NCBI RefSeq assembly: GCF_036227225.1
Contig: NZ_CP109444.1
Span: 310,001 to 374,000, forward strand
DNA: 64,000 nt
Direction of reading: 5' to 3'
Origin: Streptomyces sp. NBC_01478
GTDB taxonomy: Bacteria > Actinomycetota > Actinomycetes > Streptomycetales > Streptomycetaceae
The notes under the pieces are model-generated. The model worked only from the letters and a program-made list of their open reading frames with translations, made no database searches and was not told where the DNA came from. Shown here piece by piece: positions 30,201-52,584 of the stretch (positions within the stretch are counted from its first letter, which is position 1; every line of letters begins with the position of its first letter). The position numbers and the translations under genes were made by a program.

Positions 30201-32440
30201 AGGTCGAAGGGCGCTCGGGCCTCGGCGTCGATCCGGTCGACGACCCAGGCCGCCAGGTCGGCGGGAGCGGCGCCGCCGGGCTCGGCGTCCTCGGGTTCTT
30301 CGATGGCCAGGCTCACCGCGAGGGCGGGCAACACGCGCTGTCGCGCTTGTTCGTCGTGGACATCGATGACGGTGCGCAGGGCTTCGTGGCGGGCGACGAG
30401 ATCGTTGAGCACCGCTTCGAGAGTGGGGGCGTCGATGTCGCCGCTGACGCGGAAGGCGTACGGCAGGTTGTAGACGGCGTTGTCGGGGTGCATCTGCGAC
30501 AGGAGCCACATGCGCCGCTGGGTCGTGGACAGCGGTGCGCCCGCTTCCGTTCGCTCGGTCACTTCGACGGGCGCGGCCGAGGTGGGCGCGGCCGATGCCC
30601 TCGCGTCGGTGCGCCCGGCGAGGGACGCGGCCCAGCCGTCGAGGAACGCGGACACTTCAGCGACGGTCGGATGGTCGAACAGGGCACGGGCCGTGATGGG
30701 CAGGCGGAATTCGGAGGCCAGCAGGGAAGCGACCCGGACCGCGCTGAGCGAATGGCCGCCGACGGCGAAGAAGTCGTCGTCGATGCCTGGCGGCACCTGC
30801 TCCAGAACGGTTCGCCAGACCTCTGCGACGCGCAGTTGCGTCGGGTTGGACGGCTGCCGACGAGGGCTGTCGGCGGGGCGTCGGGTCGCGATCCGGCAGG
30901 GGCCGGCCTCAATGCCCCGGCCGACGGCCGGCTTGGCGGACCCGTTGCCGGTCCTCGCGGGAACACCGAGCTCGGCAGGCCACGGCGTCGCGGCTATCGG
31001 GCTGTCGGGCGAAGAGGTCAGGGTTTCGAGCAGGCGGACGAAGCCGGCCACGACGGCCGCGGCCGTCGGGGAGTCCAGCACGGCCGTCTGGTAGCGGAGG
31101 TAACCCGGCATTCCCGTGGGCAGGTCGGCGAGCTGGAGTTCGACCTCGTACAGGGAGCGGCGTGCGAGGTGTTCGGTAGCCTCGACCGTCAGGGGGCCGA
31201 CGGCAACCGGGGGGTCCAGTGGCTGGCGGCCGCCGAGCAGCACTTGGAACAGCGGGTGCACATCGGGGCGGCGGGCCGGGGCGAGGCGCTCGACCACCCG
31301 GCGGAACGGGATGTCGGCGTCGTCGAAGGCCGACAGCGTCACCTCGCGGGCCACGCGCAGGGCATCGCGCCAGGTCGCGGCGGCCGGTAGGCGGACGCGC
31401 AGCGCGGTCTGGTTGGCGATGAACCCGGCGGTGTCGCGCGAGGCGGCGTCGCGGCGGCCGACGACGGTGCCGAGGACCGCTTCCCCGTGGCCTGACATGC
31501 GCTGGATCAGGACGGACAGCGCGGTGAGCCAGACCATGAACGGAGTGGCGCGCTCCGCCGCCGCGACCGCGCGGACAGCCTCGGCCAGCGCAGCCGGAAC
31601 ATCGACCGGGAGGACCGCGGCGGCGTAGGAATCGCCCGGGGTCAGACGCCCGAAGGACGGCCAGCGTTCGGCGTCGGCCGGCAGGTCGGCCAGCTCGGCG
31701 ACGCGGCGGTCCAGACGCTGCGCCATGTCGGGTCTGTCGGCGGCGGCGCGGGTCCGGGAAGCCGCCGCGACCAGGGTGGGCGGCGGAGCCGGCAGGTCTT
31801 CGCCGCGCAGAGCCGCCACCAAGTCGCCGTGGAGCACCTGGAGCGTCCGGCCGTCGGCGACGATGTGGTGCACGACGGCCAGCAGCCGGTGCCGCCGTCC
31901 GGCCACCCGGGCCAGAGTGAAGCGGGCCGGCGGACCGTTCTCCAGGTCGAAGGGCCGGTGGGTCTCGCGGTCGGCGAGCGCGGTCCAGCGCTGCTCGACC
32001 CCGGGCTCGGTCGCGGAGTCCGACGACGCCGGATCGGCGTCGGCGGCGGCGGCGGCGGGGACGGTCAGATCGACGTATTCGAGCACCCCGGTGAATTCAG
32101 GCTCGATCACCATGACCGGTGTGCCGGAGTCGTCGGCCGGGAACCGTGCGCGCAGCGCCTCGTGGCGGCGGCCGAGCACTCGGACGGCGCTCAGCGCGGT
32201 TTCCCGGTCGAACGGCCCGGTCAGGTCGACGACCAGGGCGATCTGATGCACCAGCGCCTCAGGGGTGGTCAGGTCGAACAGCCACACGTCTTCCTGCGCG
32301 GCGTCCGGCCGGCCGACCCGCTCCGCAGCGGTCGGCACGGCGTCGAGCGGATCGAGCCCGGCCTCCTGGTGGACGCGCCTGAGGTTCTGGGCGGAAAACC
32401 GGCGGGCGCGGGCATCCGGCCGAGTGGGGATCTCGGTCAT
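27272..32440 (-). CDS. NRPS: C, PCP, C, A, PCP
   Basis: 1,722 residues. C1 at ~40-480 has VVHHIVADG; a PCP follows at ~530-600 (FFAVGGHSLSAVRV) with no A domain between. C2 at ~635-1075 has TAHHIACDGWS; the A domain at ~1090-1590 has IVFTSGSTGRPKGVA, FDGSVLDF, NIYGPTETTIW and RQVKIRGHRVELPEIE; the last PCP at ~1615-1680 has FFEIGGDSLLLARV. Pocket code read as D-G-L-F-L-G-I-I-W-K, which I cannot assign. The first PCP must be loaded in trans, by a stand-alone A enzyme or a BtrH-like acyltransferase. Start and stop overlap both neighbours by ATGA. Confidence 0.93.
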   Translation of the reverse strand: MTEIPTRPDARARRFSAQNLRRVHQEAGLDPLDAVPTAAERVGRPDAAQEDVWLFDLTTPEALVHQIALVVDLTGPFDRETALSAVRVLGRRHEALRARFPADDSGTPVMVIEPEFTGVLEYVDLTVPAAAAADADPASSDSATEPGVEQRWTALADRETHRPFDLENGPPARFTLARVAGRRHRLLAVVHHIVADGRTLQVLHGDLVAALRGEDLPAPPPTLVAAASRTRAAADRPDMAQRLDRRVAELADLPADAERWPSFGRLTPGDSYAAAVLPVDVPAALAEAVRAVAAAERATPFMVWLTALSVLIQRMSGHGEAVLGTVVGRRDAASRDTAGFIANQTALRVRLPAAATWRDALRVAREVTLSAFDDADIPFRRVVERLAPARRPDVHPLFQVLLGGRQPLDPPVAVGPLTVEATEHLARRSLYEVELQLADLPTGMPGYLRYQTAVLDSPTAAAVVAGFVRLLETLTSSPDSPIAATPWPAELGVPARTGNGSAKPAVGRGIEAGPCRIATRRPADSPRRQPSNPTQLRVAEVWRTVLEQVPPGIDDDFFAVGGHSLSAVRVASLLASEFRLPITARALFDHPTVAEVSAFLDGWAASLAGRTDARASAAPTSAAPVEVTERTEAGAPLSTTQRRMWLLSQMHPDNAVYNLPYAFRVSGDIDAPTLEAVLNDLVARHEALRTVIDVHDEQARQRVLPALAVSLAIEEPEDAEPGGAAPADLAAWVVDRIDAEARAPFDLSAGPLIRARLIAPGTPSAALVVTAHHIACDGWSLELLFAELAELYTARTENRPSTTPAPAIQFMDFAAWQSEQLTGAHRERLADYWRGQLEGAPTLLDLPTDRTRPAQRRPDGAVVDFAWPADLEERVAEFSRRHGVTAYATLLAAFASVVHRHTGRDDLLIGTPVANRVRPEFTKTVGCFVNLVPLRLRVPGDTTFLDLARAAHRTISQAQEHQDFPFEDLVALLRPDRDPSHDPVVQLLFVLQDVDTALSLPGADLAPLPAHGGGSIQDLSVILQHAGAQAGGGFFGTAEFNTSLYGADTVSRLLGHLNTLLQAALAAPDTAVADLDLLTRDELAQLDRWNDTGLPAPLATDVPALFERWADQAPERTAVVGADGELSYAELEARANRLAHHLAEIGVGPGTAVGVALDRCQDLPVAFLGVLKAGAVYVPLDTGYPAERLALMIDDTEVKALITRTGRAEPPGADRLPVVCLGGPDDPLGRYPDTRPARNVGPGDPAYIVFTSGSTGRPKGVAIHHRGVVNSAHAELEFVDPESPDTVIQFSSPSFDGSVLDFTLAFAHGGRLCIVPRDRMLPGPDLAETVRRHQVTMAFLPPSALAVMQPGDVPGLRTILVGGEAFPPELGPLWAPNRRLFNIYGPTETTIWCTHTLLDGTERRPTIGSSVPGTTARVLDERLRLVPVGVPGELCIGGLGVGLGYLRRPELTARQFPLDPYAAQPGAHLYRTGDLVRRLPDGNLDYLGRIDRQVKIRGHRVELPEIEARLERIPGVGRGVVTARRAPSGPGPLRLIAYVSPAAPLGVADLDPSALRRQLAQNLPEFMVPAVIVPLAAFPLNGNGKIDHAKLPEPPRDRNTGAARIAPVSRLEREIAAVWCDLLGLDEVGTHDNFFEIGGDSLLLARVRTRLTQVLDRDIAALQLFTHPTVHDLAAALSDDAPRATAAPVAAAASARPGARSALLTRSRRAASGRDDEGKATR

Positions 32441-34110
32441 GAGGTGATCACGGCTCCCGTGTCAGTGGTCTCGGCGCGCACGAGGAGATCCAGGGTCGCG
32501 CCGTCGGGCGTCTCGGCTGTGCCGCCCGCCGTGGGCGAACGGAGGAAGTCGATGGCCGCGTGGTTGCGGCCGGTGTCGCGGTAGCCGACGACGATCCGGT
32601 CGGCGCCCATGGCCCGCGCGTGCGCGGCGATCTCGCGCATCGCCTGGGCCTCGACGCCCTTGCCCATGGCCGGGCAGGAGATGACAAAGGCCTCGACGAC
32701 GCAGTCCGAGCCGTGCCTGGTCAGCATCAGGACTACGCTGGGGCCGAGGTCACCGAGGCGGTCCCGGACGCTGCCGAGCAGCAGGACCCGGTCGCCGTCG
32801 GCCGCCACCGCGCCCACCGTCACGGGCGGGATCGGCACCCCGAGGGTGAAGTCCTTGGAGGCCACGAGCATTTCGTTGATCTTGGCGAGGTCGCCGTCCC
32901 GGGCCGCACGGAAGTCGGCCTCGACACCGAGCCCGGCGACGAAGGAGGCCAGCGACAGACCGCCGGCGGGCTCGGGGACTCCGTCGCCGCCGACGGGGCC
33001 GCCCCAGGCGACCGCTCGGGGGGGCGCGCCGGGCACCGGCAGGCGATCGAAGACCCCGGCGGCGGCCAGGCGCGACGGCCAGGCCGCGGCGTCCGCACCG
33101 AGATCCACCGCCTCGGCGGGGCCGCTGCGAGCCGTCCGCACCGTGACGATCAGATGGTCCTCCCGGCGCTGGAGCAGGGCGACGTCCCGAGCGGCCAGAC
33201 CGGCCTCGGCGGCCAGGCCGCGCACCTGGGCGTCGACGTCACGGTCGTCGAAGAACCAGTCGGACAGCCGTGCCGGAACCGTCGCATCGCTCGTGATGAG
33301 GTCACGCCACGCCGTGACCGCGTCTCGGCCGCCGAGCGCGTACGACGGCACTCCGGCGCCGGACAACCAACGCAGGACACCGCCGAGACCGTCGACGTCC
33401 TCGGCATCGGAGAGACCACGCAGGTCCAGCGCCGCGGCGTGGCAGGTATCGCCGGTCCGCAACCGCAGGACGTGAGCGATACGCGCCCCGAGGTGGTGGT
33501 AGACCTCATCGCGATAGGGAACCTTCGCGTACTGGTACAGCGCCGGGTGGTGCGCCTTCGCGGCACCGAGCGAGCGGAGCACCGCTTCGAGATCCACCAG
33601 GTGGACGTTCGGCCGGTCGGCCAGCGCGGTCCGCATCGCCTCGCGCGCGGCCGCGGCCTCGGCGGTGCGGCCATCGGACCAGCAGTCGCCGGCGACGCCC
33701 AGCGGATCGGCCGCCGGCAGGCCGGGAAGCACCGCGACCAGCGTGGCGCCCCACCGCGCCGCTGCCTCGCGCGCCACGTCCGCGACGGCCGGCAGCCCGG
33801 TGATCCAGGTGCCGTCTTCCAGCTCCTCCAGGCGCTGCGCGACCACCACCACGTCCAGATCCGCCCGAGCGGAGCCGCTGTCCGGGTCGAGGCACTCCTG
33901 GATGATCTGGTTGTAGGGCGCGACGTGGAAGTCCGGGCGACCGTACGCCCCGCCGAGCGCCGCTGCGAGATAGGGCACGACCGAGTCGGCCGTGTAGCTG
34001 GCCATGATCCCGATGCGCGGTCCGTCGGGCGGTCCCGTGCGCTCGGTCTCCTGGTGGGCGGCCCGCAGCGCGCGCAGGTCGACCGGGACATCTGTAAGGG
34101 GCAATGGCAT
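32437..34110 (-). CDS. FkbH-like protein with degenerate HAD domain
   Basis: 557 residues. Three FkbH segments are in order: an N-terminal SGNH-like region (MASYTADSVVPYL, then FHVAPYNQIIQECLDPDSGS), a central HAD-like region, and a GNAT-like C-terminus (VEAFVISCPAMGKGVE, then GADRIVVGYRDTGRNHAAI). True FkbH enzymes transfer and dephosphorylate bisphosphoglycerate to make glyceryl-ACP. Here the DxDxT nucleophile motif is replaced by ALDLRGLSD, the CSKN motif by ALGGRD, and the FVDDNPAER motif by LLQRREDHL, so phosphatase chemistry is very unlikely. The start at 34110 follows AAGGACGATC; a longer frame upstream lacks a site. The stop overlaps the next NRPS. Confidence 0.8.
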   Translation of the reverse strand: MPLPLTDVPVDLRALRAAHQETERTGPPDGPRIGIMASYTADSVVPYLAAALGGAYGRPDFHVAPYNQIIQECLDPDSGSARADLDVVVVAQRLEELEDGTWITGLPAVADVAREAAARWGATLVAVLPGLPAADPLGVAGDCWSDGRTAEAAAAREAMRTALADRPNVHLVDLEAVLRSLGAAKAHHPALYQYAKVPYRDEVYHHLGARIAHVLRLRTGDTCHAAALDLRGLSDAEDVDGLGGVLRWLSGAGVPSYALGGRDAVTAWRDLITSDATVPARLSDWFFDDRDVDAQVRGLAAEAGLAARDVALLQRREDHLIVTVRTARSGPAEAVDLGADAAAWPSRLAAAGVFDRLPVPGAPPRAVAWGGPVGGDGVPEPAGGLSLASFVAGLGVEADFRAARDGDLAKINEMLVASKDFTLGVPIPPVTVGAVAADGDRVLLLGSVRDRLGDLGPSVVLMLTRHGSDCVVEAFVISCPAMGKGVEAQAMREIAAHARAMGADRIVVGYRDTGRNHAAIDFLRSPTAGGTAETPDGATLDLLVRAETTDTGAVITS

Positions 34111-34196: not shown

Positions 34197-34400
34197 TCAA
34201 GGATTGATGTAACGGTGGCCGCAGGAGGCCGCAGGGGTGTCGTGGTGCCCCAGGCGCGCCGTACCGTCCTCGGACAGGCGCACCTCGGTCCGCTCGAAGT
34301 GCCGGATCGTCAGCAGCGAGGCAGGGCCGTCGACTCCGGTCCCGCCGGGCCTGCGTGCCGGGCTCGGAGCGGACAGCGGCGCGAAGTCGGCGACGGTCAC
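34197..34400 (-). CDS. Small unknown protein, 67 residues
   Basis: The GTG start overlaps the ACP stop (GTGA), and nearly all third codon positions are G or C, so it is very likely translated as part of the operon. The N-terminus is Ala/Pro-rich (ADFAPLSAPSPARRPG); the middle TIRHFERTEVRLSEDGTARL could be a beta hairpin; the C-terminus ASCGHRYINP has a single Cys. No family recognised. It lies between the free ACP and the FkbH-like protein, so a helper role for one of them is possible. A precursor-peptide role cannot be excluded, but no RiPP enzyme is nearby. Confidence 0.65.
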   Translation of the reverse strand: MTVADFAPLSAPSPARRPGGTGVDGPASLLTIRHFERTEVRLSEDGTARLGHHDTPAASCGHRYINP

Positions 34401-34663
34401 GAGGCCACCCCCTTGGCCACCAGGAGCTCGCGCAGACCGGCGATGCTGGTGATGCCCCTGATCTCCCGGCTGCTGAGGGCCACCCCGTAGTGCTCCTCCA
34501 GCACGACCACGACCTCGATGTGCTTCAGGCTCGTCCAGGCCTCATGGACGCCGGGCCCGGCGTCCTCGGCCAGTTCGGCCCCCGACACCCCCAGGACCTC
34601 GGCGATCAGGCCGGACAGATGGTCGGTCGGCGGCACATCGGCCGTGTGCTCGGCGGTGCCCAT
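34397..34663 (-). CDS. Free acyl carrier protein
   Basis: 88 residues from the ATG at 34663. The phosphopantetheine Ser is in HEAWTSLKHIEVVVVLEEHY, close to the WDSLRHVEL form of carrier proteins that accompany FkbH enzymes (FkbJ type), with Thr in place of the usual Asp. The start was chosen because it overlaps the stop of the upstream 31-residue ORF (TGATG) and because codon bias in the same frame upstream drops. The stop overlaps the next small gene. In related systems this ACP receives glycerate from FkbH; here it more likely carries another acyl group. Confidence 0.82.
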   Translation of the reverse strand: MGTAEHTADVPPTDHLSGLIAEVLGVSGAELAEDAGPGVHEAWTSLKHIEVVVVLEEHYGVALSSREIRGITSIAGLRELLVAKGVAS

Positions 34664-34818: not shown

Positions 34819-37800
34819 TTACTGGGCCGTGGGTGCGGCCAGGGCGCGGAATCGGTCGGCGATGCGCTCGGCGAGCGCCGTGACGGTCGCGGCGTCATGG
34901 ATGCTGCGCCGGTAGTAGATCTGAAGGACCAGCGCGCCGTCGACGATGGCCGGCATCAGGTCGAACAGATAGGGCCAGGTGCACGCACCGTCCTGGCAGG
35001 GTCCGTACGAATCGGGGCAGTGCCCGAACAGGGACGTGTGCGCGGAGGTCTGCTCGAACCCGGACTCACCCATGTAGTTGAAGCTGAACAAGGGCTGCTC
35101 GCCCCCCGTCAGGCCGACGCGCAGTGCGGGATCGGCATGCTGGCCGGCCAGCACCGCGTAGCCGAAACCGGAGTCGGGGACGACCGCGAGCCGGCGGTGT
35201 ACCGACTGCACCAGTGACATGCCCTCGGTATCGGCGACGTCGATACCGATCGGGAAGTAGATCTGGAACCAGCCCACCGTCCGGACCAGGTCGAGGTCCG
35301 GGAATCGGTGGGGCCGCCCGTGCCCGGCCACCGCGAACCGGCATGAGTCGCTACTGGTCCATTCGGCCAGGACCGAAGCCGAGGCGGCGAAGACCGCGTC
35401 GGACAGGCTGGCGCCCCGGCCGACGGCGAGCCGCTGCACCGCGGCCGTCTCCGCGGCGCTGACCCGCACCTCGGCGGTCTCCATGTAGGCCATCTCCCGC
35501 GATCCGCCCTCGTGGTCGACCGGCACGACCGGTGCGCGGACACCTTCCGGGGTGGGGGCGACCTGCTCCAGCCAGAACGGCACCTCGGCGAGGAGTTCCT
35601 CGCTCGACGCGTACTCGTCGACCCGGTCGGTCCAGTCGCGGAACGACGTGGTCTTCGGAGGCAGGCGCAGCGGTGCCGCCATGACGGCCTGTTCGGTGAG
35701 GGTGGTCAGATCCTCCAGCAGGATGCCTCGGGACATGCCGTCCACGACCAGGTGATGGCAGATGATCAGCAGCCTGTCCGGCTCGCCGTCGGTGTGCAGG
35801 TGCAGCGCGCGCAGGGTCGGCCCGGCAGCCAGGTCGAGGCCGCTCTGGAGCCCGATGGCCAGAGCCTCGGCCCGTTCGGCGCGCTCCTCGGCCGGTGTCC
35901 CGGTCAGATCGACGCGCTCGAACGGCACATCCACGCCGGTGGGCTCCGACCACTGCCGCCACTCACCGTCCTCGCCGCGGGCGAAGCGCAGCCGGAGTGC
36001 GTCGTGATGGTCCACGAGGACACGCAGAGCGCTTTCCAGGTGTTCCGCGGTGACGTCCGGACGCACCGTGAGGTAGTAGGGGTGGTTGTAGTAGTTGGGG
36101 TCGCCGCCGGCTCCGAGCGGGTTGGCGAAGAACCACCGCTGAGCCGGGGCCAGGGCCACCGGCCCGATGACCGGGCCTTGATCGGCGACGACCACCGGGG
36201 CCGCGTCGGCCTCGGCCAGGTCGGCGACCGACGCCGCCTCCAGGACGGCACGCGGCGACAGGCTGATGCCGCACCGGGCTGCCTGGGAGACGACCTGGAT
36301 CGCGGTCATCGAGTCGCCGCCGAGCGCCAGGAAGCTGTCGGAGAGCCCGACGCGATCGATGCCGAGCAGCCGGGCCAGGATTTCGGTCAACTGCCGTTCA
36401 CGCCCGGTGCGCGGCTCGACGTATTCGCCTCGGTACACGCGCCAGCGGGCCCGGTCCACGGCCGCCTGGATTCCGGCCGCGTCCGACAGTTCGGTCAGGA
36501 TGCGCGAGCCGGCGGCCGCGCTGACGCTCGGCGCGGTCCCGAGGGCGGCGTCGGCGTCGTACTCCCCGGGGAAGATCGGCTGGTCGAGCGCCCACAGGTG
36601 GTCCAATACGTGGCGCGTACTGTCCGCCTCCTCCGGTATCGCGACCGCGAGAACGCCCGGGAAGCGGGCGCCCAGCCGCTCGCAGAGTTCTGCGTCCGGA
36701 TCCAGCACGACGCAGTCGGCCGGGTCGACGGCGCCGACGGCGACCGCCTCCGCGAATCCGGCTTCGAGGTCCCCGACGGAATGCCCGGCGAGCCACAAGG
36801 CGGCATCCACGTCGGGCAGCAGGTCCGGACGGGCGGCGAGCTCCAGTCGAACGGCGGGCTCGGCACCGGCGAACACCAGCGAGCGGTTCTGGGCCGTCGC
36901 TCGCCGTAGCGCGCGGGCGACGAGCGCGGCGCGTTCGCCGTCGTCGGCCCCGGTACCGCCGCAGAGCCCCAGCAGACGGCCGGGGTCCAGGCAGACGGTG
37001 CCGCGCGGTTCGGTGCTCAGGACAGCGCGGGCCACCACCGTGCCCAGAACCGTCGTGAACTCCGGCGTGTAGGGCATGTGCGCGAGACGGTCCGCGTGTT
37101 CGTCGTCGCGTCGCTCCACCGGGTACCGGTCGGCGATGGGGCCGACGTCGAGAACTCGTACGGCGGGCAGGGTCGCGGCCAGCCGCGTCAGCCGTGCGGT
37201 CAGCCCGCGTTCCAGGGTGGCCCACGGTTCCGCGGACCAGCCGGGCGAGGCCGGGCAGATGGCCATCAGCAGCGGTGTCCGGCACCAGGCGCGGTGGCTG
37301 AGCAGGGCGGCGTGCAGATCGCCGAGGGCGGTTTCGAGGTCGCGGACTACGGCGTCGAAGCGGGCCGGGCCGTCAACGGCGCCGACGAGAGCGCGCGGAT
37401 CGTGGCCGAGGTGGCGGACCCCGTCCTCCCAGCGGAGCAGCACGGTGTTGACGCGTGCCCCGGCCGTGCCGAAGGCGGCGTCCGGGTCGAGGAGTTGTTG
37501 TACGACCTGCGCGTAGGGTGCGAAGGCGACCTTGGCCGGCCGGCCGAACAGGTCGAACCAGAAGCCGAGCGCCGGGCCGGCCGCTTCGGCGGTGAAACTG
37601 GCCGCCACGGCGGTGGAGGGGACGGTGGCTGCGCGGTCGAACTCGGTGTCGGGTTCGGTTCCGGGCGCGATCACCGGCATCCGGCAGCCCTGAGGGAAGG
37701 CGACATCACCACTGCGGGCCTCGGAGTCGCCGGCCACCGCCTCCAGCATGGCGGCGAACGCTTCCAACAGCGCCTCCGCCCCGGCGGGTGAGTACAGCCC

Positions 37801-40800
37801 GGTCTGGTAGTCCAGGGTGATCAGGAACTCGTCGCCCTCGGCGTCGAGACTGAACAAGAGCTCGAACTCCGTCCCGGCACGGAGCCAGCTCAGCGGCTCC
37901 AGGGTCAGACCGTCGATGTCGGGCAGGCTGTCGTCGCCGTCGACGAAGTTGAACAGCGTCTGGAACAGCGGTTGGCGGCCGGGGACGCGCCCGGCGCGGA
38001 CCGCCGAGACGATGTTCTCGAACGGCAGCCGCTGGACAGCGCGTGCATCCAGAATCGCTTCGTGGGTGGCCGCGACCCGGCCCGCGACGGTCAGGTCGCC
38101 GACCCCGGTCAGCCGGATCGGCACCAGGTCGGCGAAGTCGCCCACGACATCGGACAGTCCGGCGTGCTCGCGGTTGCCGTTGAGCGTGCCGACGACGAAC
38201 TCGTCTCGTCCGCCGGCACGGGCGGCCAACAGATGGAACGCGCTGAGTACGACGCTGAACAGCGGCACCTCCATCCGGCGTCCGGCGGCGCGCAGCCGTG
38301 CGGCCAGCTCGCTGTCGACGCGCCGGGTGACCGCGGCGCTGTCCGAGCCGATCTCCGCGGTGCGCGGGAAGTCGGTCGGCAGCGAGGAGAGCGCCGGGAC
38401 GTCCCGCATGATCTCCCGCCAGCGCGTCTCGTGTTCGCGCCCGCCCGCGCCGAGGAGCCAGTGGTGTTGCCAGTGGGCGTAGTCGGCGAACTGCACCGGC
38501 AGCTCCGGGAGCTCCGGATCCCGTCCCGAGCAGGCGGCGTGGTAGAGCTCGGCCAGGTCGCGCACGATGATGGCCCAGGACCGGTTGTCGGTGACCGCGT
38601 GATGCATGGCCATCGACAAGTAGTGGGTGCGTGGCCCGGCGGCGAACAGCCGGAACCTGGCCAGCGGACCACGGTCGAGGTCGAAGGTCTCCTCGGCGGC
38701 GGCGCGCATCAGTCGCTCGATCTCGCCGGACCGGCCCGGCCCTTCGGGGACGGTCGCCGTCGCCGGGAAGACCTCGCTCCCCCAGCGCTCCGCATCGGGC
38801 ACGATGCGCAGCACCGGCACACCGTCGCGGTCCTCGGCGATCGTCGTACGCAGCGATTCGTGGCGATCGAGCAGGGCCGCGACAGCCGTGCGGAGTGCGG
38901 CCTCGTCGAGGTCGCCGTCGATGCGCAGCGGGAAGGCGCTGTTGTGCAGGAGGCCGGCGCCGTGCACCTTCGCCAGGGTCCACAGCCGGCGCTGGGTGGA
39001 GGACGGTACGAGCGGCTGGTCGCGTGACACGGGCATCGGGCCGTCCTCGGGCACGCCGGGTGCCGAGGCGTCGACGAGGTGGGCGAGGTGGGCGAGGGTC
39101 GGGCCGCGGAAGAGCTCGAACGGCTCCACCGAGCGGCCGAACTCGGCCTTGATGCGGGTCAGCAGCTCGACGGCGAGGAAGGAGTGGCCGCCGAGGGCGA
39201 AGAAGCTGTCGTCCAGGCCGACCCGGTCGACCTTGAGCGCCTGCTGCCACATCGCGGCCAGGCGGCGCTCGGTGTCGGTGACCGGCTCGCGGAATCCGGC
39301 CGCGCCCGGCGCTCCCCTCTCTGCAGCAGGTCCGCCGTCGGCGAGGTCGGCCGCGTCGGCACCGCCGACAGGTCCGGCGCCCCCGGCGGCCAGCCGCGAC
39401 GGCCAGACCGGGACGAGCTCGGCCGGGCGCCCATCCTCGTCGCGGACGGTCAGCGGCAGCAGGCCGCGCACGACCGAGGCACCGAGCAGGGCGTGGAAGT
39501 CGGCACCGGCGTACGGCACGACGTCCAGCCCGTCCAGGAAGTCCGCGTCGTCCTGGTGCTCGTCGAAGCCGTCGCTCCTGGTGCTCCGGGTGCTCTCGGC
39601 GTTCTTCGGCACTGCGGCCTGCACGGTGCGGATCCGGACGTCGGACCAGCGTCGGCAGGCTTCGCCGAGACGGCGGGCCGGTCCGTCGAAGACCTCGGTG
39701 CCGTGCCAGCGGGACCACGCCGCCGAGGGCGGGCAGAGCACGATCGTCAGGGGGTCCTCGGACCAGGCACGGTAGGCGGACAGGGCGTCGCAGAGCTCGA
39801 CGAGGCCGCGGTCCAGGGCCGCACCGACCGCTTCGGGGTCGCGGCGGTCCAGCACTGCGCCGACCTTGGCCAGATCCTCCCAGCGCAGCAGCACCACGTG
39901 GGCCGCGCCGGGGTTCATGCCGAACACGCCGGTCAGCGCGCGCAGTTGTGCGGCCACCGGGCCGGGTTCGGACGGCACCTCGAAGCCCAGCCCGAGGCCC
40001 GCGTGCCTGGCCCAGGCGCGCAGTACCGGCAGCACCGGTTCGACCGGGAAGGAGGCCGCCAGCGCGACCAGCCCGGCGCGCGCCGGAGCGAGGCGGCTCC
40101 ACGGCGTGTCGGGAGCGACGGCGACGGCGCGCGCCAGGTCGGCGAAGCGTCCGGTGAGGTCGGCGATGGTGTCTGCGGTGAACAGGTCGGTGTTGTAGCG
40201 CAGTTCGCCTTCGAAGCAGCCGTCCTGGCGACGTTCCATGTTCAGGAACAGGTCGAAGTCGGTGACGCCGTTGTCGCGGGTCTCCACGGTGAACTCCGGG
40301 ACCGCGTCGTCGAAGCGGGCCGGGAGGACCTCGTGGAAGCCGAACATGACCTGGAACAGCGGGTTGCGGGACGGGTCGCGCGGCGGCGCCAGGGCTTCGA
40401 CGACCTTGGCGTACGGGACCTCCTGGTCCCCGTAGGCCCGGCCGGCCTCCTCGTGGGCCGCGCGCAGCAGGTCGCGGAAGGTGGCCGAGGCCGCCGGGGC
40501 CATGCGCAGGACGAGGATGTCGGCGAAGCAGCCGATCATCGGCTCCAGTTCGGGACGCGTCCGCCCGGCCACCGGGGATCCGACGACCACTTCGGCGTCC
40601 TCCGAGGTCCGGCCGAGCAGGATCGTGAGGACGCTGAGCAGGGCGACGAACGGCGTGGTGCCCTCGGCGCGGGCCAGGGCGGCCAGGCGCTCGCTGGTCC
40701 CGGAGTCCAGGACGAGGGGGGTCAGGGCGCCGTGGTGGGTCTGGAGCGACGGCCTGGGCTTGTCGGCGGGCAGGTCCAGGACGAACGGGGCGCCGGTCAG

Positions 40801-41520
40801 GCGGTCGCGGACCGCGGCGAGGCGGCGCTCGTAGCGGTCCCCCGCCGCGCGCTCGCGCGCCCACAACGAGAAGTCCGGGTACTGGATCGGCAGTGCCGGG
40901 AGCTTCGGCCGGCGGCCTCCGGCGTCGGCGCGGTAGGCCTCGACGAGTTCTGCCACGAGGACGGAGGTGGACCAGCCGTCGAAGGCGATGTGGTGGACGA
41001 CGATCTGGAGCAGGTGCTCGTCGCTCCCGACGGGGAACAGCGCGGCGTCCAGGAGGCGTCCGGTGACCAGGTCGAGTCTGGTGCGCGCGTGCCGGACCAG
41101 GGCCGCGTCGAGGTCCGGCGAGCCCTGCCGGTCGCCGGGCACGGCGACGGGGACGGCGACCGGTCCGGCGGGGACGACTCGCTGGCGCGGCCCTTCGGGG
41201 CCGGCGACGAACGCGGTGCGCAGCGCTTCATGGCGCTCCACGACCACGGCGAGCGCGCGTTCCACGGCCCCGTGGTCCACGGCGCCGCGGACCCGGATCG
41301 AGACGGTGATGTTGAGGGCCGGGTTGCCCGGATCGAGCAGGTCCTGGAAGTAGAGGCGCTCCTGGGCCGGGCTGAGCGGGATCAGGTCCAGGCCCGCGTC
41401 ACGGGGGCGCAGTCGACCGGCAGCGGCGGCGTCCCGCTTCTCGGCGCGCAGACGGGCGAGGATTTCGGCGCGCTGGTCGGCCGACATCTCGCGGGCGGGT
41501 TCGCGGATGGTCTCGGTCAT
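34819..41520 (-). CDS. A-domain-less NRPS: C, FkbH-like, PCP, C, FkbH-like, PCP, E-like
   Basis: 2,233 residues. C1 (~45-460) has HHIAFDGWS. The next ~290 residues match the SGNH-like part of FkbH (AASFPVEPVLPVLRAW, HVVLLRWEDL) and stop before the HAD part. PCP1 (FFALGGHSFLAVEL) is near 840. C2 (~915-1350) has HHAVTDNRS. A second FkbH-like region (VAASFTAEAAGPALGFW, AFAPYAQVVQQLLDPD, HMPYTPEFTTVLGT) spans ~1380-1740 and includes a HAD-like tail whose catalytic motif is CLDPGRLLGLCGG. PCP2 (LALGGDSMTAIQV) is near 1770. The C-terminal ~400 residues are epimerisation-type (HHLVVDGMS, RTVGWF, FNYMGE), but the EGHGR motif is AGHGR, so the catalytic Glu is missing. No A domain is present. The ATG overlaps the PKS stop. 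Confidence 0.85.
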   Translation of the reverse strand: MTETIREPAREMSADQRAEILARLRAEKRDAAAAGRLRPRDAGLDLIPLSPAQERLYFQDLLDPGNPALNITVSIRVRGAVDHGAVERALAVVVERHEALRTAFVAGPEGPRQRVVPAGPVAVPVAVPGDRQGSPDLDAALVRHARTRLDLVTGRLLDAALFPVGSDEHLLQIVVHHIAFDGWSTSVLVAELVEAYRADAGGRRPKLPALPIQYPDFSLWARERAAGDRYERRLAAVRDRLTGAPFVLDLPADKPRPSLQTHHGALTPLVLDSGTSERLAALARAEGTTPFVALLSVLTILLGRTSEDAEVVVGSPVAGRTRPELEPMIGCFADILVLRMAPAASATFRDLLRAAHEEAGRAYGDQEVPYAKVVEALAPPRDPSRNPLFQVMFGFHEVLPARFDDAVPEFTVETRDNGVTDFDLFLNMERRQDGCFEGELRYNTDLFTADTIADLTGRFADLARAVAVAPDTPWSRLAPARAGLVALAASFPVEPVLPVLRAWARHAGLGLGFEVPSEPGPVAAQLRALTGVFGMNPGAAHVVLLRWEDLAKVGAVLDRRDPEAVGAALDRGLVELCDALSAYRAWSEDPLTIVLCPPSAAWSRWHGTEVFDGPARRLGEACRRWSDVRIRTVQAAVPKNAESTRSTRSDGFDEHQDDADFLDGLDVVPYAGADFHALLGASVVRGLLPLTVRDEDGRPAELVPVWPSRLAAGGAGPVGGADAADLADGGPAAERGAPGAAGFREPVTDTERRLAAMWQQALKVDRVGLDDSFFALGGHSFLAVELLTRIKAEFGRSVEPFELFRGPTLAHLAHLVDASAPGVPEDGPMPVSRDQPLVPSSTQRRLWTLAKVHGAGLLHNSAFPLRIDGDLDEAALRTAVAALLDRHESLRTTIAEDRDGVPVLRIVPDAERWGSEVFPATATVPEGPGRSGEIERLMRAAAEETFDLDRGPLARFRLFAAGPRTHYLSMAMHHAVTDNRSWAIIVRDLAELYHAACSGRDPELPELPVQFADYAHWQHHWLLGAGGREHETRWREIMRDVPALSSLPTDFPRTAEIGSDSAAVTRRVDSELAARLRAAGRRMEVPLFSVVLSAFHLLAARAGGRDEFVVGTLNGNREHAGLSDVVGDFADLVPIRLTGVGDLTVAGRVAATHEAILDARAVQRLPFENIVSAVRAGRVPGRQPLFQTLFNFVDGDDSLPDIDGLTLEPLSWLRAGTEFELLFSLDAEGDEFLITLDYQTGLYSPAGAEALLEAFAAMLEAVAGDSEARSGDVAFPQGCRMPVIAPGTEPDTEFDRAATVPSTAVAASFTAEAAGPALGFWFDLFGRPAKVAFAPYAQVVQQLLDPDAAFGTAGARVNTVLLRWEDGVRHLGHDPRALVGAVDGPARFDAVVRDLETALGDLHAALLSHRAWCRTPLLMAICPASPGWSAEPWATLERGLTARLTRLAATLPAVRVLDVGPIADRYPVERRDDEHADRLAHMPYTPEFTTVLGTVVARAVLSTEPRGTVCLDPGRLLGLCGGTGADDGERAALVARALRRATAQNRSLVFAGAEPAVRLELAARPDLLPDVDAALWLAGHSVGDLEAGFAEAVAVGAVDPADCVVLDPDAELCERLGARFPGVLAVAIPEEADSTRHVLDHLWALDQPIFPGEYDADAALGTAPSVSAAAGSRILTELSDAAGIQAAVDRARWRVYRGEYVEPRTGRERQLTEILARLLGIDRVGLSDSFLALGGDSMTAIQVVSQAARCGISLSPRAVLEAASVADLAEADAAPVVVADQGPVIGPVALAPAQRWFFANPLGAGGDPNYYNHPYYLTVRPDVTAEHLESALRVLVDHHDALRLRFARGEDGEWRQWSEPTGVDVPFERVDLTGTPAEERAERAEALAIGLQSGLDLAAGPTLRALHLHTDGEPDRLLIICHHLVVDGMSRGILLEDLTTLTEQAVMAAPLRLPPKTTSFRDWTDRVDEYASSEELLAEVPFWLEQVAPTPEGVRAPVVPVDHEGGSREMAYMETAEVRVSAAETAAVQRLAVGRGASLSDAVFAASASVLAEWTSSDSCRFAVAGHGRPHRFPDLDLVRTVGWFQIYFPIGIDVADTEGMSLVQSVHRRLAVVPDSGFGYAVLAGQHADPALRVGLTGGEQPLFSFNYMGESGFEQTSAHTSLFGHCPDSYGPCQDGACTWPYLFDLMPAIVDGALVLQIYYRRSIHDAATVTALAERIADRFRALAAPTAQ

Positions 41521-44500
41521 CGGACGCCCTCTTTCCGGGGGTCGGGCAGCGGATCGGTGGCGGCGGGCTGTGACGCGGACTGACTGCCGAGGTAGGCACT
41601 CATGAGCTCTTCGTCGGCGTACTCGCACAGCGCCGCCACGGTCGGCGCCTCCATCAGGGCACTGAGCGGGAGTTCGACGCCGAGGACGTCGAGTAGGCGG
41701 GCCACGACGCGAGTGGCCAGCAGGGAATGGCCGCCGAGCTCGAAGAAGTCGTCGTGGACGCCGATGTCGGCGATGCCGAGCAGGTCCCGCCAGACCTCCG
41801 CGACGGCTTCCTCACGGTCGTCGCGGGGGGCGACGTAGGCGGTGGCCAGGCGACGCGGATGTGCTTCGAGCGTGGCGGCGGGCGCGGCCTCGCCGGCGCG
41901 GTCCCCGTGCGCGGCGGCGGCGCTGGCGGCGTCGGTGGGCGTCGGCGTGCCGACCGGTTCACCGCTCGCGATGGGGAGCAGGCCGATGAGCGCGTCGGAG
42001 GTCGGCGGGTCGATCCAGTAGCGTTCCCGCTCGAACGGGTAGGTGGGCAACTCCGCACGCCCGCGCCGGTCGTGGCGCCAGTAGCCGGTCCAGTCCGGCT
42101 CTGTCCCGGCGAGCCACAGCCGGGCCAGGGCCTCGGTCACGGTCCGGTCGGCGGGGACCGGCCTGCCGGGCGCGGGCAGGCTACCGACCACGAGGTTCCC
42201 GGACATCTCAGGGTTCTGCCGGGCCAGGGTGGCCAGGGCGGTGCCCGGGCCGACCTCGATCAGCGCCAGCGGTCCGGTCTCCACGAGAGTCACGAGGCCC
42301 TCGTGGAAGCGGACCCGCCGGCGCAGGTGTCGTACCCAGTAGTCCGGCGAGGTGGCCTCCTCGTCGGTGATCCACGTCCCGGTCAGGTTGGAGACGAACG
42401 GCACAGCGGGGGCGGCGAGCGGGACGGCGGCCGCGAGGGCGCGGAAGTCCTCAAGGATGGGATCCATCGCCGGGGAGTGGAAGGCGTGCGAGGTGTGCAG
42501 CGGACGCACCGCGACTCCCTTGGCGGCCAGCGTCCGCTCGATGTCGTCGAGCGCCTCGGCCGGCCCGGACAGGACGGTGAGCGACGGGGCGTTGGACGCG
42601 GCGACGGCCACGTCGCCCCGGACGAACCGCTCGGCCTCCTGGATCGGCAGCGCGACCGACAGCATGCGGCCCGGCGGCAGCGCCTGCATCATGCGCCCGC
42701 GCAGGGCGATCAGACGCAGAGCGTCTTGAAGGGGCATCGTGCCGGCCAGGCAGGCGGCCACGTACTCGCCGACGCTGTGGCCGATCATCGCCGCGGGCCG
42801 GATGCCCCAGGACTCCCAGAGCCGTGCGAGGGCGTATTCGACGGCGAACAGAGCAGGCTGCGCGAATTCGGTTCGGCGCAGCAGTTCGGCGACAGCCGGA
42901 TCTTCCACGGCGCCCGAGGATCGATCGGCTGCGGAATCGCCAAGGACGAGGTCGCGCAGGTCCCGGCCAAGGATCGGGATGAGCAGGTCTGCGCAGGTGT
43001 CGAAGGCGTCGCGGTACGCGGGCTCGGTGCGGTACAGCTCGGCTCCCATGCCGACGTACTGAGCGCCTTGGCCGGAGAACATGAACACGATGTCGCGACG
43101 GCCGGTTTCGACGTGACCGGCCATGGCCGCCGGCGATCCGGGGGCGAGTGCGGCCGCAGCGTCCGCTGCGGAGTCCGCGATCAGGGCCATGCGATGCGTG
43201 AAGGCGGTGCGGCCGAGTTGAAGGGTGGACGCGGCGTCGGCGAGTTCGGCAGGACTGGACCCCGGTCCCGTGAGGAGATGCTCACGCAGCCGCTCCCGAG
43301 CCGTTTCCAGCGCGCTCGGAGTACGGGCCGAGAGCACAAGCAGGTGCCGCTTGCGAAACGGCGGACCGGCCGGGGCCGGGTCGGGCGCCTCCTGGAGGAT
43401 CACGTGCGCGTTGGTGCCCCCCATGCCGAAGCTGCTCACCGCCCCCAGGCGCCGCCCGCCGCGAGGCCGCCCCCAGGTCCGCTCGGCGGTGGGCACCTCG
43501 AACGGGCTGCCCGCCAGGTCGATGCCGGGGTTCGGCTCACCGAAGTACGGACTCGGTGGCACGACGGCGTGCTCCAGTGCCAGCACGACCTTGAGGAACC
43601 CGGTGATGCCGGCGGCCGCGTCCAGGTGTCCGATCAGGGCCTTGACCGAGCCCAGGGCGCAACGCCCGTCCAGCTCGGGGTCGCGCCCGGCGAAGGCCTC
43701 GGCGAGCGCCGCGAACTCGATCGGGTCGCCCAGCGGCGTGGCGGTGCCGTGCGCCTCCAGATAGCCGATGTCGGCCGGGTCGACTCCGGCGAGGTCGCGG
43801 GCGGCGCGCAGCACGGCAGACTGGCCCTGGACGCTGGGCGCGGTGAACCCGACCTTGCGGCGGCCGTCGTTGTTGAGAGCGGTGGCCTTGACGACAGCGT
43901 GGACCCGGTCTCCGTCGGCGAGCGCGGCGGTCAGCGGCTTGAGCACCACCGCACCGACACCGTTGCCGCTCACGGTGCCCGCGCTTCGGGCGTCGAAGGG
44001 CAGGCAGCCGCCGTCCGGGGAGAGGATGCCGTTCCCACGGCCGTCGTGGACGGACATCTGCGGCAGGCGCACCGAGGCGCCGCCGGCCACCGCGATCTCG
44101 CAGTCGCCCGCGAGCAGTGCCTGACAGGCGAGGTGGATCGCGACCAGGGAGGTCGAGCAGGCGCTCTGCACCGACATCGCAGGGCCCGAAAGGTCCAGGT
44201 GGTAGGCGGCGCGGGTGGCCAGGGTGTCGGTGATGTTGCCGAGCATCTGCTCCTCACGCAGGTCGGCGAGGCCCGGGTTGGGCAGCAGATGGCGGATCAG
44301 ATAGGTGCTCAGGCTGGCCCCGGCGTAGACACCGGTGACCGGCCGCCCGACCGTCGAGCCGTAGCCGGCCCCCTCCAGGGCGGTCCATGCGCACTCCAGG
44401 AAAACCCGCTGCTGGGGGTCGAGCAGCTCGGCCTCGCGGGGGCTGTAGCCGAAGAACGCCGCGTCGAACAACTCGGCCCCGTCGAGCACTCCCCCGGCGC

Positions 44501-44777
44501 GCACGGCGGTCGGGGCGTCCAAGGCCGCACCACGGGCGCCGGACCCGGGGGCCGGCACCGTCCGTACGGTCCGATGCCCGGCACGGACGATCTCCCAGAA
44601 CCGGTCGAGATCGGGCGCCCCGGGGAAGGAGCCCGCCATGCCGATCACTGCGATGTCGAGGTCGCCGGCTCCGTCGGCATCGGAACCGATGCCGGAGTGG
44701 TCGTTCGCATCAGAGTTGTCAGCTCCGCTGTTCCCGCGAAGGTCAGCATCATGTGAGCTTGATGTCTCGTAGCGCAC
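41517..44777 (-). CDS. PKS module: KS, AT, carrier
   Basis: About 1,086 residues. The KS (~45-470) is intact: ACSTSLVAIH, EAHGTATPLGDP and GHLDAAAG supply Cys-His-His. The AT (~560-870) has GHSVGEYVAA, and HAFH at the substrate-specificity position, which predicts malonyl-CoA. The C-terminal carrier (~995-1070) has FFELGGHSLLATRV and looks more like a PCP. There is no KR, DH, ER or MT, so the beta-keto group would be kept. The start is set at GTG 44777 behind GAGGGAGGGG, because the inverted copy at the divergent operon has ATG at the matching place and most differences between copies upstream change amino acids. First gene of the minus-strand operon. Confidence 0.9.
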   Translation of the reverse strand: MRYETSSSHDADLRGNSGADNSDANDHSGIGSDADGAGDLDIAVIGMAGSFPGAPDLDRFWEIVRAGHRTVRTVPAPGSGARGAALDAPTAVRAGGVLDGAELFDAAFFGYSPREAELLDPQQRVFLECAWTALEGAGYGSTVGRPVTGVYAGASLSTYLIRHLLPNPGLADLREEQMLGNITDTLATRAAYHLDLSGPAMSVQSACSTSLVAIHLACQALLAGDCEIAVAGGASVRLPQMSVHDGRGNGILSPDGGCLPFDARSAGTVSGNGVGAVVLKPLTAALADGDRVHAVVKATALNNDGRRKVGFTAPSVQGQSAVLRAARDLAGVDPADIGYLEAHGTATPLGDPIEFAALAEAFAGRDPELDGRCALGSVKALIGHLDAAAGITGFLKVVLALEHAVVPPSPYFGEPNPGIDLAGSPFEVPTAERTWGRPRGGRRLGAVSSFGMGGTNAHVILQEAPDPAPAGPPFRKRHLLVLSARTPSALETARERLREHLLTGPGSSPAELADAASTLQLGRTAFTHRMALIADSAADAAAALAPGSPAAMAGHVETGRRDIVFMFSGQGAQYVGMGAELYRTEPAYRDAFDTCADLLIPILGRDLRDLVLGDSAADRSSGAVEDPAVAELLRRTEFAQPALFAVEYALARLWESWGIRPAAMIGHSVGEYVAACLAGTMPLQDALRLIALRGRMMQALPPGRMLSVALPIQEAERFVRGDVAVAASNAPSLTVLSGPAEALDDIERTLAAKGVAVRPLHTSHAFHSPAMDPILEDFRALAAAVPLAAPAVPFVSNLTGTWITDEEATSPDYWVRHLRRRVRFHEGLVTLVETGPLALIEVGPGTALATLARQNPEMSGNLVVGSLPAPGRPVPADRTVTEALARLWLAGTEPDWTGYWRHDRRGRAELPTYPFERERYWIDPPTSDALIGLLPIASGEPVGTPTPTDAASAAAAHGDRAGEAAPAATLEAHPRRLATAYVAPRDDREEAVAEVWRDLLGIADIGVHDDFFELGGHSLLATRVVARLLDVLGVELPLSALMEAPTVAALCEYADEELMSAYLGSQSASQPAATDPLPDPRKEGVR

Positions 44778-45137
44778 CGCCGGCCCCTCCCTCATGGAAT
44801 TGATTTCTGGCTCGCCGAGGAACCTATCGGAGCGACTTGATATTGCCGCCATTTATGCACCATGCGTTGACCATGAGCTCCATCCATAAAGAATCCGATG
44901 GTCGCGGCGAAGGTCCACGGCGTCCTGATCCGTCGGCCTTTTGGCAGCAAACTTACGGCCGGGCACGTGGCCGATGCGGCGATAGGGGGACCTGCATGTT
45001 GAATGCATGGCACGCGAATGGCGGCGATATTAACTCGCTCCGATAGCTTCATCGCCGAGCCAGAAATCAATTCCATGAGGGACGGGACGATGGCGCGCTA
45101 CAAGGCATCAAGCTCAAGCGATGCCGGCCTTCGCAGG
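44730..45137. repeat. Large imperfect inverted duplication at the divergent promoter
   Basis: Two arms, about 44730-44881 and 44988-45137, are inverted copies with roughly three quarters identity around a ~105-bp spacer. Blocks such as CGCTCCGATAG, GAGCCAGAAATCAATTCC and ATCAAGCTCA are the same in both. Each arm includes the untranslated leader, the ribosome site (GAGGGA-GGG) and the first dozen codons of its gene, so both operons start with related residues (RYETSSS and RYKASSS). Promoters of both operons must lie here; equal copies would allow one regulator to control both. I cannot place -10/-35 boxes with confidence. Confidence 0.8.
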
Positions 45138-46400
45138 AGGGACCCGGACGACCCCCTGCCGCAGCCGGCCGAAGACCTCGCCGTGCGTCCGCTCGACCGC
45201 GGACACCTCGAAGTCCCCCGGCGCACTCCGCTGCGGACTCCGCCGCCTGCCATTCCGTACGAACTCTTCGACTGCCTCCAGGTAAACCTCGCCGTGCTCG
45301 CCGACAGGTGGCATGGTGCCGGCACCCACCTGCGTCTCGGCGCGACACTGCACTTCGGTCCCGAGATCGGGGCCAACGGGTTGCCGACCGTGGAACGGAC
45401 CGTCGAGCAGCACCTTGCCGACGCGCAGAGCGCTCTCGGAATCGCCGTGCGCGCGCTGCACCGGACACCCGCGACGGCCGACATCCCGTCGACCGAGGGG
45501 TGTTACGTGGTGTCGGACGCCTATCACTTGCCGTGGGTGCCCTACTTCCGGCAGCGCCACATGGCGCACAGTTTCCTCGCCGAGGCCGACGGCACAGGCG
45601 ACGTGAACGTCGTGGACGGGTATCACAACGAAACCCCGTGGGGCAGCGCGCGCCCCGGGCTGTGGACCCTGCCTGCCCAGGACTTCATCGCCGCCGTGCC
45701 CAGCCCTGCTCTGATCGCCGAGCTCGCGCCCGCAGCCGAGGGGCCCGGCCCGGCTGCAGCCGCCCTTGATCTCGCGGGCCCTGAAGCCATTGACGCGTAC
45801 ATCGACGCCTATGCGCAGTACCCCGACCGAAACACGGCCCTCAGTCAACTCACCCTGGAAACCTGGTTCCTCGCCCGCTCCCGCAAGCTGCACGCCGCCT
45901 TCCGCGCAGAGTTCGGACCGTCTCCGGACAGCGCCGTCGACGCCCACCTGCGCGCCTGGGGCTCCCTCACCGAGCAGACCTACCTGGCCGTGCGCCGGGT
46001 CGAACGCGGCCGGACAGAGCCCCCGGCGCTGCTGCCCCGCCTCCGCGAGCAGTTGCACGCGGACAGCGTGGTCTTCGGCAACGCCCCGGCTGCGGGCGAT
46101 ATCGCCGAGTCGCCCTCCGCGGTGGGCGCCGGGCTGCGCGGCACTGTCGCCGGTGTGGCCGCGGCGGTGCTCGGCACCGAGGTCGAACCGCTCCTGAACG
46201 GGCAGTTCCTCAGCGATGTACCGCGGTTCAGCTCCTTCCGGATCGTGGAGATCGTCGAACGTCTGGAGGAGGAGCTGCACTTCGAGTTCGACGCTGAGGA
46301 CCTGGTGCCCGAGAACCTGCACGACATCGACGCCATCTGCGCAATCGTGCGGCGATCTCTGTACGCCGAGCCTGCGCCCGCTCACCTCGAAGAGGCCTGA
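45090..46400 (+). CDS. BtrH-like acyltransferase fused to a carrier domain
   Basis: 436 residues from ATG 45090 (site GAGGGACGGG). Residues ~50-215 resemble the butirosin BtrH N-terminal, papain/C39-like fold: a Cys in PYELFDCLQVNLAVLADRW, a His in HMAHSFLAEADG and an Asp in VNVVDGYHN would form the triad. BtrH moves an amino-acyl chain from an ACP to the antibiotic. The last ~75 residues are carrier-like (DVPRFSSFRIVEIVERLEEE), with Ser in SSF, so enzyme and carrier are one chain. The stop overlaps the ligase start. Likely task: accept an amino-acyl group from the ACP cassette and pass it on. Confidence 0.72.
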   Translation: MARYKASSSSDAGLRRRDPDDPLPQPAEDLAVRPLDRGHLEVPRRTPLRTPPPAIPYELFDCLQVNLAVLADRWHGAGTHLRLGATLHFGPEIGANGLPTVERTVEQHLADAQSALGIAVRALHRTPATADIPSTEGCYVVSDAYHLPWVPYFRQRHMAHSFLAEADGTGDVNVVDGYHNETPWGSARPGLWTLPAQDFIAAVPSPALIAELAPAAEGPGPAAAALDLAGPEAIDAYIDAYAQYPDRNTALSQLTLETWFLARSRKLHAAFRAEFGPSPDSAVDAHLRAWGSLTEQTYLAVRRVERGRTEPPALLPRLREQLHADSVVFGNAPAAGDIAESPSAVGAGLRGTVAGVAAAVLGTEVEPLLNGQFLSDVPRFSSFRIVEIVERLEEELHFEFDAEDLVPENLHDIDAICAIVRRSLYAEPAPAHLEEA

Positions 46401-49474: not shown

Positions 49475-49505
49475 CCGGCCACGCCCGCCGAACCAAGGAG
49501 CGCAC

Positions 49506-52583: not shown

Positions 52584-52584
52584 T

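Follow-up and report, generated by a model that had tools for sequence, protein, structure and literature searches.

FkbH relics in place of adenylation domains in a Streptomyces NRPS, and a possible divided FkbH

How are the carrier domains of a nonribosomal peptide synthetase (NRPS) loaded when the enzyme has no adenylation (A) domain? The question is raised by a gene in a stretch of 64,000 nucleotides from Streptomyces sp. NBC_01478 (contig NZ_CP109444.1, positions 310,001 to 374,000), referred to here as the window and numbered from its first letter. The gene (34819–41520, minus strand) encodes a protein of 2233 amino acids, X-NRPS, in which two FkbH-derived domains, X1 and X2, occupy the positions of A domains. 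An earlier note, made from the sequence alone, had drawn attention to them and suggested that acyl groups are brought in trans. Below we trace X1 and X2 to FkbH and propose, tentatively, that functions lost from them are provided by two adjacent genes, encoding a standalone FkbH-like protein (FKB) and a discrete acyl carrier protein (ACP).

The domains of X-NRPS are arranged as C1-X1-PCP1-C2-X2-PCP2, where C is a condensation domain and PCP a peptidyl carrier protein, followed by a third condensation-type domain of the epimerisation (E) type. The open reading frame (ORF) is real: it is a coding frame with a high G+C content at third codon positions, and its ATG at 41520 overlaps the stop codon of the ketosynthase-acyltransferase-PCP (KS-AT-PCP) gene upstream. 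A Pfam scan returned three condensation-type and two PP-binding stretches; AMP-binding was absent at E≤0.1, and the same scan detected it in a neighbouring NRPS (27272–32440). A protein search gave 31 homologues, of which seven multidomain ones were omitted and 24 were aligned with the window protein; they come from Streptomyces, Kitasatospora, Streptosporangium, Couchioplanes, Micromonospora, Nocardia, Pseudonocardiaceae and Actinoallomurus, with one partial protein from a Chloroflexi metagenome-assembled genome. The HHxxxD motif is kept in 23/23 rows with letters in C1 (40093–41385; PF00668, residues 46–476; HHIAFDG) and in 25/25 rows in C2 (Pfam; 37696–39015; HHAVTDN), where the following glycine is replaced. 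The serine is likewise kept in PCP1 (39061–39285; PF00550; LGGHS; 25/25 rows) and PCP2 (Pfam; 36205–36408; LGGDS; 24/24 rows with letters). Of the hallmarks of an NRPS elongation module, X-NRPS therefore has the HHxxxD of the C domain and the PCP serine but no A domain. The position and length of the gene, the twice repeated C, FkbH-like, PCP order and the missing A domain had been read correctly before; the terminal E-type domain, recognised by its match to TIGR01720, had gone unmentioned, as had the loss of its catalytic glutamate, the standalone transferase and the discrete ACP described below.

X1 and X2 descend from FkbH, as had been supposed. X1 (about residues 479–745; 39286–40086) consists of the N-terminal domain only, and X2 (about residues 1281–1705) of an N-terminal domain (37015–37623) and a remnant of the HAD phosphatase (36451–37014), the transferase domain being absent. 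The two are homologous (29%, E 5e-11), X2 matches the neighbouring FKB (E 9e-6), and X2 can be aligned with FkbH domains of many phyla, mostly over its residues 13–358 or so. Chance similarity was rejected as an explanation on the grounds of this homology between X1, X2 and FkbH, the genome scans and a tree of the N-terminal domain (see below).

The extent of decay was assessed against canonical FkbH domains. Of 146 loci from a genome scan with the X2 alignment, 80 encoding a relative were kept; the 68 rows numbered L016 and up that have a TNQF-type transferase motif served as the canonical set, the other 12 being omitted. Positions conserved in at least 90% of the canonical rows number 26 in the N-terminal domain, 53 in the HAD domain and 32 in the transferase domain, and individual canonical rows retain 21–26, 44–53 and 26–32 of these, respectively. 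X2 of the window retains 22/26, 13/53 and 3/32, and X1 12/26, 2/53 and 1/32. The transferase part is down to 0–3 of the 32 residues in all 23 X1 and 25 X2 rows, and the N-terminal domain is itself eroded in some, e.g. to 9/26 in X2 of P0022 and P0023. Where 68/68 canonical rows have DxD, HAD motif I of X2 reads LDPGRLL (residues 1511–1517; 36970–36990), and motif IV reads LDPDAELC. The description of a HAD-like tail with LDPGRLL in place of DxDxT was accordingly right. That the first unit stops before the HAD part holds for the clade of the window, while several relatives, P0013 and P0014 among them, retain a HAD remnant in X1. Similarly, calling the domains degenerate is justified for the HAD and transferase parts and not for the N-terminal domain of X2. 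With the HAD residues decayed and the transferase domain absent, X1 and X2 are unlikely to carry out bisphosphoglycerate chemistry, in line with the earlier view.

Profile searches agree with these counts. X2 of the window matched no NCBIfam family at E≤0.01 (TIGR01686 matches 46 of the 53 rows in the alignment of X2), and X-NRPS gave no match to PF21211 at E≤0.1. Against solved structures the X2 profile returned three matches, none below E 0.1, one of them being BF1531 (0.18, aligned to the HAD relic), a structure that a canonical FkbH row matched at 9.8e-24. An intact HAD domain or a hidden A domain in X1 or X2, either of which the earlier note had named as contrary evidence, was looked for by profile searches and motif counts and neither was found.

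Nei-Gojobori ratios of nonsynonymous to synonymous substitution (dN/dS), calculated for the window against four close orthologues, were 0.16–0.23 for the N-terminal domain of X2, 0.28–0.37 for that of X1 and 0.58–0.93 for the HAD remnant of X2 (residues 1503–1650). C1 and C2 gave 0.23–0.37, the E-type region 0.21–0.25, PCP2 0.20–0.44 and PCP1 a noisy 0.17–0.70; one value of 1.54 for the short X2 tail rests on very few changes. The N-terminal domain of X2 is under purifying selection and its HAD relic is relaxed, and since the former is held while the latter drifts, the N-terminal domain presumably still has some function.

A tree of the N-terminal domain was built from 117 rows (68 canonical, 19 X1, 20 X2, 7 FKB, 3 acidobacterial), from which near-copies, P0017 and any row no longer than 130 residues had been removed. 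Every X1 and X2 row fell into a single clade (support 99/96; 99/95 with the Chloroflexi row included). The FKB rows formed a very long branch whose placement is unsure. Truncated domains from Acidobacteriota (L015, L017, L020) formed a clade of their own (99/95), which grouped with FkbH from the same phylum (88/96), so that truncation of FkbH probably arose at least twice. In these three loci a PCP directly follows the truncated domain; an AMP-ligase gene stands separately upstream in L017 and L020, and the L017 domain has kept DCDNTLW and lost the DDN motif.

The transferase missing from X1 and X2 seems to survive in FKB, a protein of 557 amino acids encoded nearby (32437–34110, minus strand). 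FKB matches TIGR01686 over its transferase part (E 4e-13, 49.2 bits), and its HAD motif is degraded; it found no match among solved structures. In canonical FkbH the transferase cysteine carries the acyl group. The equivalent Cys479 is present in 45/45 aligned rows (16 of FKB type and 29 of canonical type) and in all nine FKB rows of the motif count, which include that of genome G908 (see below). The surrounding Ser478, Gly483 and Glu487 are invariant across the same 45 rows.

The gap between X-NRPS and FKB is occupied by a further ORF (34397–34660, minus strand), which encodes a discrete ACP of 87 amino acids (PP-binding, 23.4 bits against a cut-off of 20.8; WTSLKH). The corresponding gap in L009–L012 holds orthologues (78–88% identity), relatives lie before E1a, one of the genes for 2-oxoacid-dehydrogenase-type E1/E2 enzymes, in Streptosporangium (42%) and S. 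diastatochromogenes (47%), and another stands directly after X in G908 (44%). All eight ACPs (the window and seven other loci) have the WTS motif in common. The genes that come after X-NRPS in Streptosporangium and in S. diastatochromogenes are MFS, E1a, E1b, E2 and FKB. FKB has E1a and E2 genes beside it in L013, L148 and G908, in the last of which they precede it. Among six genomes searched, which did not include G908, only Streptosporangium and S. diastatochromogenes yielded E1a of the cluster type (70% or more). A more distant ACP was found in 13 Streptomyces genomes without the two-X NRPS, and in 6/6 loci checked from these (L169–L174) it lies in an E1a-ACP-E1b-E2 operon, between E1a and E1b with E2 following. 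These six loci gave no match to X-NRPS in the region fetched; a SARP-like match lies a few kb from the operon in five of the six. The ACP is thus of a family often associated with E1/E2, and the operon may be a cassette for acyl-ACP supply.

Do these three genes travel together? Identical sets of 392 Streptomyces genomes were drawn for the X, FKB and ACP searches. Orthologues of X-NRPS (E<1e-100), FKB (E<1e-200) and the ACP (E<1e-35) were each found in exactly the same three, G000, G512 and G475. Weaker matches were obtained with the X2 profile in 56 further genomes (best 4.6e-57) and with the FKB profile in 117 (best 1.3e-44), and all 29 of the weaker X-profile loci that were read have an intact HAD motif I. 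FKB is present in all seven searched genome entries with X-NRPS, corresponding to six distinct genomes because G512 and G778 appear to be the same; its gene is spread over more than one contig in S. diastatochromogenes. A protein search with the FKB profile found none in Micromonospora, Nocardia or Couchioplanes, which is not evidence of absence as it also missed the FKB of Streptosporangium.

When 394 actinomycete genomes were searched with a different X alignment, ten matched: the genome of the window itself, eight with ORFs of 704–965 amino acids, G1041 with a canonical FkbH, and G908, from another family, with a truncated X. In G908 this X ends an NRPS of 2286 residues with the order docking-C-A-PCP-C-X, its A domain containing a luciferase-like insert, and no PCP follows. 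FKB was then sought in G908 as a test that could fail, and was found about 23 kb away (E 4e-70). The FKB ORF there also contains a PCP and an E-type domain, in which the glutamate of EGHGR is missing as well. Judged by its domain order, this FKB-PCP-E protein seems to complete the C-X module. At the same locus (L168) the luciferase-like domain sits inside the A domain of the X-ending NRPS; in the window the luciferase-like protein has a gene of its own.

The terminal domain of X-NRPS (34837–36162) matches the epimerisation-associated model TIGR01720 at 50.8 bits, under the cut-off of 74.2. HHxxxD is kept in 23/23 rows, and the FNYxG-type motif, here N[YF]MG, likewise in all 23 rows with letters. 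The epimerisation active site comprises the glutamate of EGHGRE and the histidine of HHxxxDG, according to PMC7551626. This glutamate is replaced in all 23 family rows with letters (AVAGHGR in the window), and three unrelated E domains in the fetched loci retain it. The combination of a replaced glutamate and a kept HHxxxD is seen in L013, L148 and L167 as well. From these residues the domain is unlikely to be an ordinary epimerase, and with the catalytic glutamate lost it cannot prove that PCP2 bears an amino acid.

The order C-FkbH-PCP is not new, although it had not been recognised in the earlier note. Replacement of an A domain by FkbH is described in PMC8949500, PMC10099666 and PMC5318452, and replacement by an FkbH-like domain is noted in PMC11298585. 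The systems are vioprolide, cystomanamide and corramycin (C-FkbH-T) and foxicin (C-FkbH), in all of which, as in X-NRPS, the FkbH-derived domain follows a C domain. Modules of the vioprolide type are described there as loading glycerate, which has also been proposed for suomilides (PMC13122637), whereas the X modules have no catalytic residues in cis. Canonical FkbH in the fetched loci keeps its HAD and transferase domains; in X-NRPS neither remains functional in cis, the module occurs twice, and the transferase and the ACP have genes of their own. What looks unusual is that FkbH has apparently been taken apart, into N-terminal relics within the NRPS, a transferase in FKB and an ACP encoded separately. 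Among the open-access papers searched, mostly by title and abstract, none was found to describe an FkbH that is split and phosphatase-dead.

Other systems share single elements with this arrangement. Assembly lines of the naphthyridinomycin and quinocarcin type receive a glycolyl unit supplied by E1/E2-type enzymes, and we know of no FkbH relic or FKB transferase in them; unlike them, the window cluster has no E1/E2. Their ketose-derived two-carbon unit reaches the NRPS on an ACP, as described in PMC9268379. The pathways to methoxymalonyl-ACP and to the glyceryl-ACP of tetronates rely on a standalone FkbH-like protein and a discrete ACP (PMC7489565), which resembles the pair of FKB and ACP, but FKB has a degraded HAD and travels with an NRPS bearing FkbH relics. 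In albicidin, cystobactamid, enduracidin and ramoplanin biosynthesis a carrier is loaded from a separate protein, as we propose for the PCPs of X-NRPS; they differ from our case in that the dead domain is an A domain and the helper an A-T protein.

We propose that the modules of X-NRPS derive from modules with whole FkbH domains and that FkbH function has since been divided. The N-terminal domain would have stayed in X1 and X2 as a site for docking or presentation, and the transferase domain with its invariant cysteine would have been relocated to FKB. The HAD phosphatase may have decayed in both halves because a donor without phosphate has replaced the phosphate anhydride; this donor would be an acyl thioester on the discrete ACP. 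The acyl group would pass from the ACP to Cys479 of FKB and on to PCP1 and PCP2, after which C1 and C2 would condense. In several relatives the ACP could be charged by E1/E2 enzymes; in the clade of the window one of two standalone A proteins is the more likely source, which is a guess made with low confidence. We infer the direction of transfer, the donor, the docking role of X and the identity of the acyl group from anatomy and co-occurrence. The proposal draws on domain anatomy, the pattern of decay, selection, co-occurrence, the one FKB-PCP-E fusion and the kinship of the ACP with E1/E2 operons. Acyl delivery in trans, as suggested before, is thereby given candidate partners in FKB and the ACP and is the most economical reading. 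That FKB moves acyl groups from the ACP to the PCPs of the X modules, with X as docking domain, seems to us about as probable as its opposite. The full relay without a module A domain, in which E1/E2 or a substitute charges the ACP, the FKB cysteine carries the acyl group, the N-terminal relics dock and the pseudo-epimerase has a new job in the hand-over, is possible but more doubtful.

Several observations weigh against this proposal. By curated cut-offs FKB is a weak member of the FkbH family (TIGR01686, 49.2 against 146.65 bits; PF21211, 18.6 against 27). The Asp pair of HAD motif I survives in X1 of 1/23 rows, X2 of 3/25, FKB of 3/9 and the X of G908 (1/1). The FKB gene of Streptomyces sp. 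150FB appears as three pieces (G777:C1:8064415–8067561) in open frames of different length, which may reflect a disrupted gene or an assembly problem. Since X-NRPS, FKB and ACP genes are neighbours, part of their co-occurrence is co-inheritance. The acidobacterial loci with a similarly truncated X gave no FKB match at 1e-8 in their stretch, so truncation of X is not always accompanied by FKB. There is no E1/E2 in the window, where the charging of the ACP is a guess. ACPs with 29–46% identity occur in 13 further Streptomyces genomes without a two-X NRPS, and a match of 42–47% is for this reason not specific by itself.

The alternatives differ in what they would have FKB and X do. The standalone A proteins encoded at 23014–24543 (minus strand) and 53571–55097 (plus strand) might charge PCP1 and PCP2 in trans, leaving X1 and X2 as FkbH-derived spacers and FKB with the ACP to make another building block. 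There are two such paralogues (about 54% identical) for two X modules, complementation of missing or dead A domains in trans is well known, and both genes lie on the contig of the cluster in 4/4 searched Streptomyces genomes of the window type (84–100% and 53–54% to the query). However, S. diastatochromogenes (G781), which has X-NRPS and FKB, gave no match to the A protein used as query at E≤1e-60; Streptosporangium (G780), which has both too, gave one only on another contig, and its 45 kb contig contains no standalone A gene. Their absence from two X clusters weakens the A proteins as universal loaders, and this scheme leaves the purifying selection on the N-terminal domain of X2 and the FKB-PCP-E fusion unexplained; we consider it unlikely. 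In a further alternative, which we find improbable, FKB and the ACP make an extender or starter unit for polyketide synthesis by the adjacent KS-AT-PCP, as for methoxymalonyl-ACP, and the link to X reflects only shared ancestry in one cluster. Pairs of this kind for methoxymalonyl-ACP or glyceryl-ACP are described, as mentioned above, a KS-AT-PCP gene accompanies X-NRPS in the window, L013, L014 and G908, and two acyl-CoA-dehydrogenase-like genes on the other strand (49506–51861) can be read as an oxidation step. The phosphatase residues of FKB are nevertheless lost, no O-methyltransferase or 3-hydroxyacyl-CoA-dehydrogenase family was found among the window ORFs scanned with Pfam (not every ORF), and the FKB of G908 is fused to a PCP that seemingly completes the C-X module and not to a polyketide synthase.

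The two other possibilities concern X-NRPS itself. The X modules could be dead and skipped in a decaying pseudocluster, which would suit the loss of catalytic residues from both X and the E-type domain. We judge this highly improbable, as the PCP serines and the HHxxxD of the C domains are kept in every row with letters, dN/dS values for the C, PCP and E regions are 0.17–0.44 apart from one PCP1 value of 0.70, and the architecture persists across several genera. Conversely, X1 and X2 might still be catalytic, a cryptic active site in the N-terminal domain loading glycerate or another acyl group; its conserved residues, several of them polar, would fit this. With no transferase cysteine domain in any X row (0–3/32) and the HAD relic relaxed, we give this idea hardly any credence.

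The neighbourhood of X-NRPS contains further biosynthetic genes. Directly upstream is the KS-AT-PCP polyketide module (41517–44852, minus strand), in the same order in L013 and L014. Also on the minus strand are the neighbouring NRPS mentioned above (C-PCP-C-A-PCP by Pfam), an A-PCP protein (24576–27275) with a partial C-like N terminus recognised by NCBIfam NRPS models and, from domain scans, a luciferase-like monooxygenase (21961–22953) and a standalone thioesterase (21150–21956). The plus strand encodes a pair of an AMP-forming ligase and a pyridoxal phosphate-dependent decarboxylase (46400–49217) and the two acyl-CoA-dehydrogenase-like proteins, all assigned by domain scans. Together, the genes at 46400–51861 suggest that a carrier-bound decarboxylated amino acid is made for the cluster. 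Two proteins (45003–46400 and 52510–53547) had no curated Pfam match, with a weak resemblance to a carrier at the end of the former (13.1 bits, under the cut-off); by eye we take both to resemble BtrH-type acyltransferases.

Domain-prediction pipelines would call modules such as those of X-NRPS empty or broken. If the proposed relay is true, a carrier can be loaded without an adenylation domain and without glycerate chemistry, by parts (docking domain, transferase and ACP) that would be separable and reusable. The role of the N-terminal domain of FkbH, isolated here by evolution, would then become testable.

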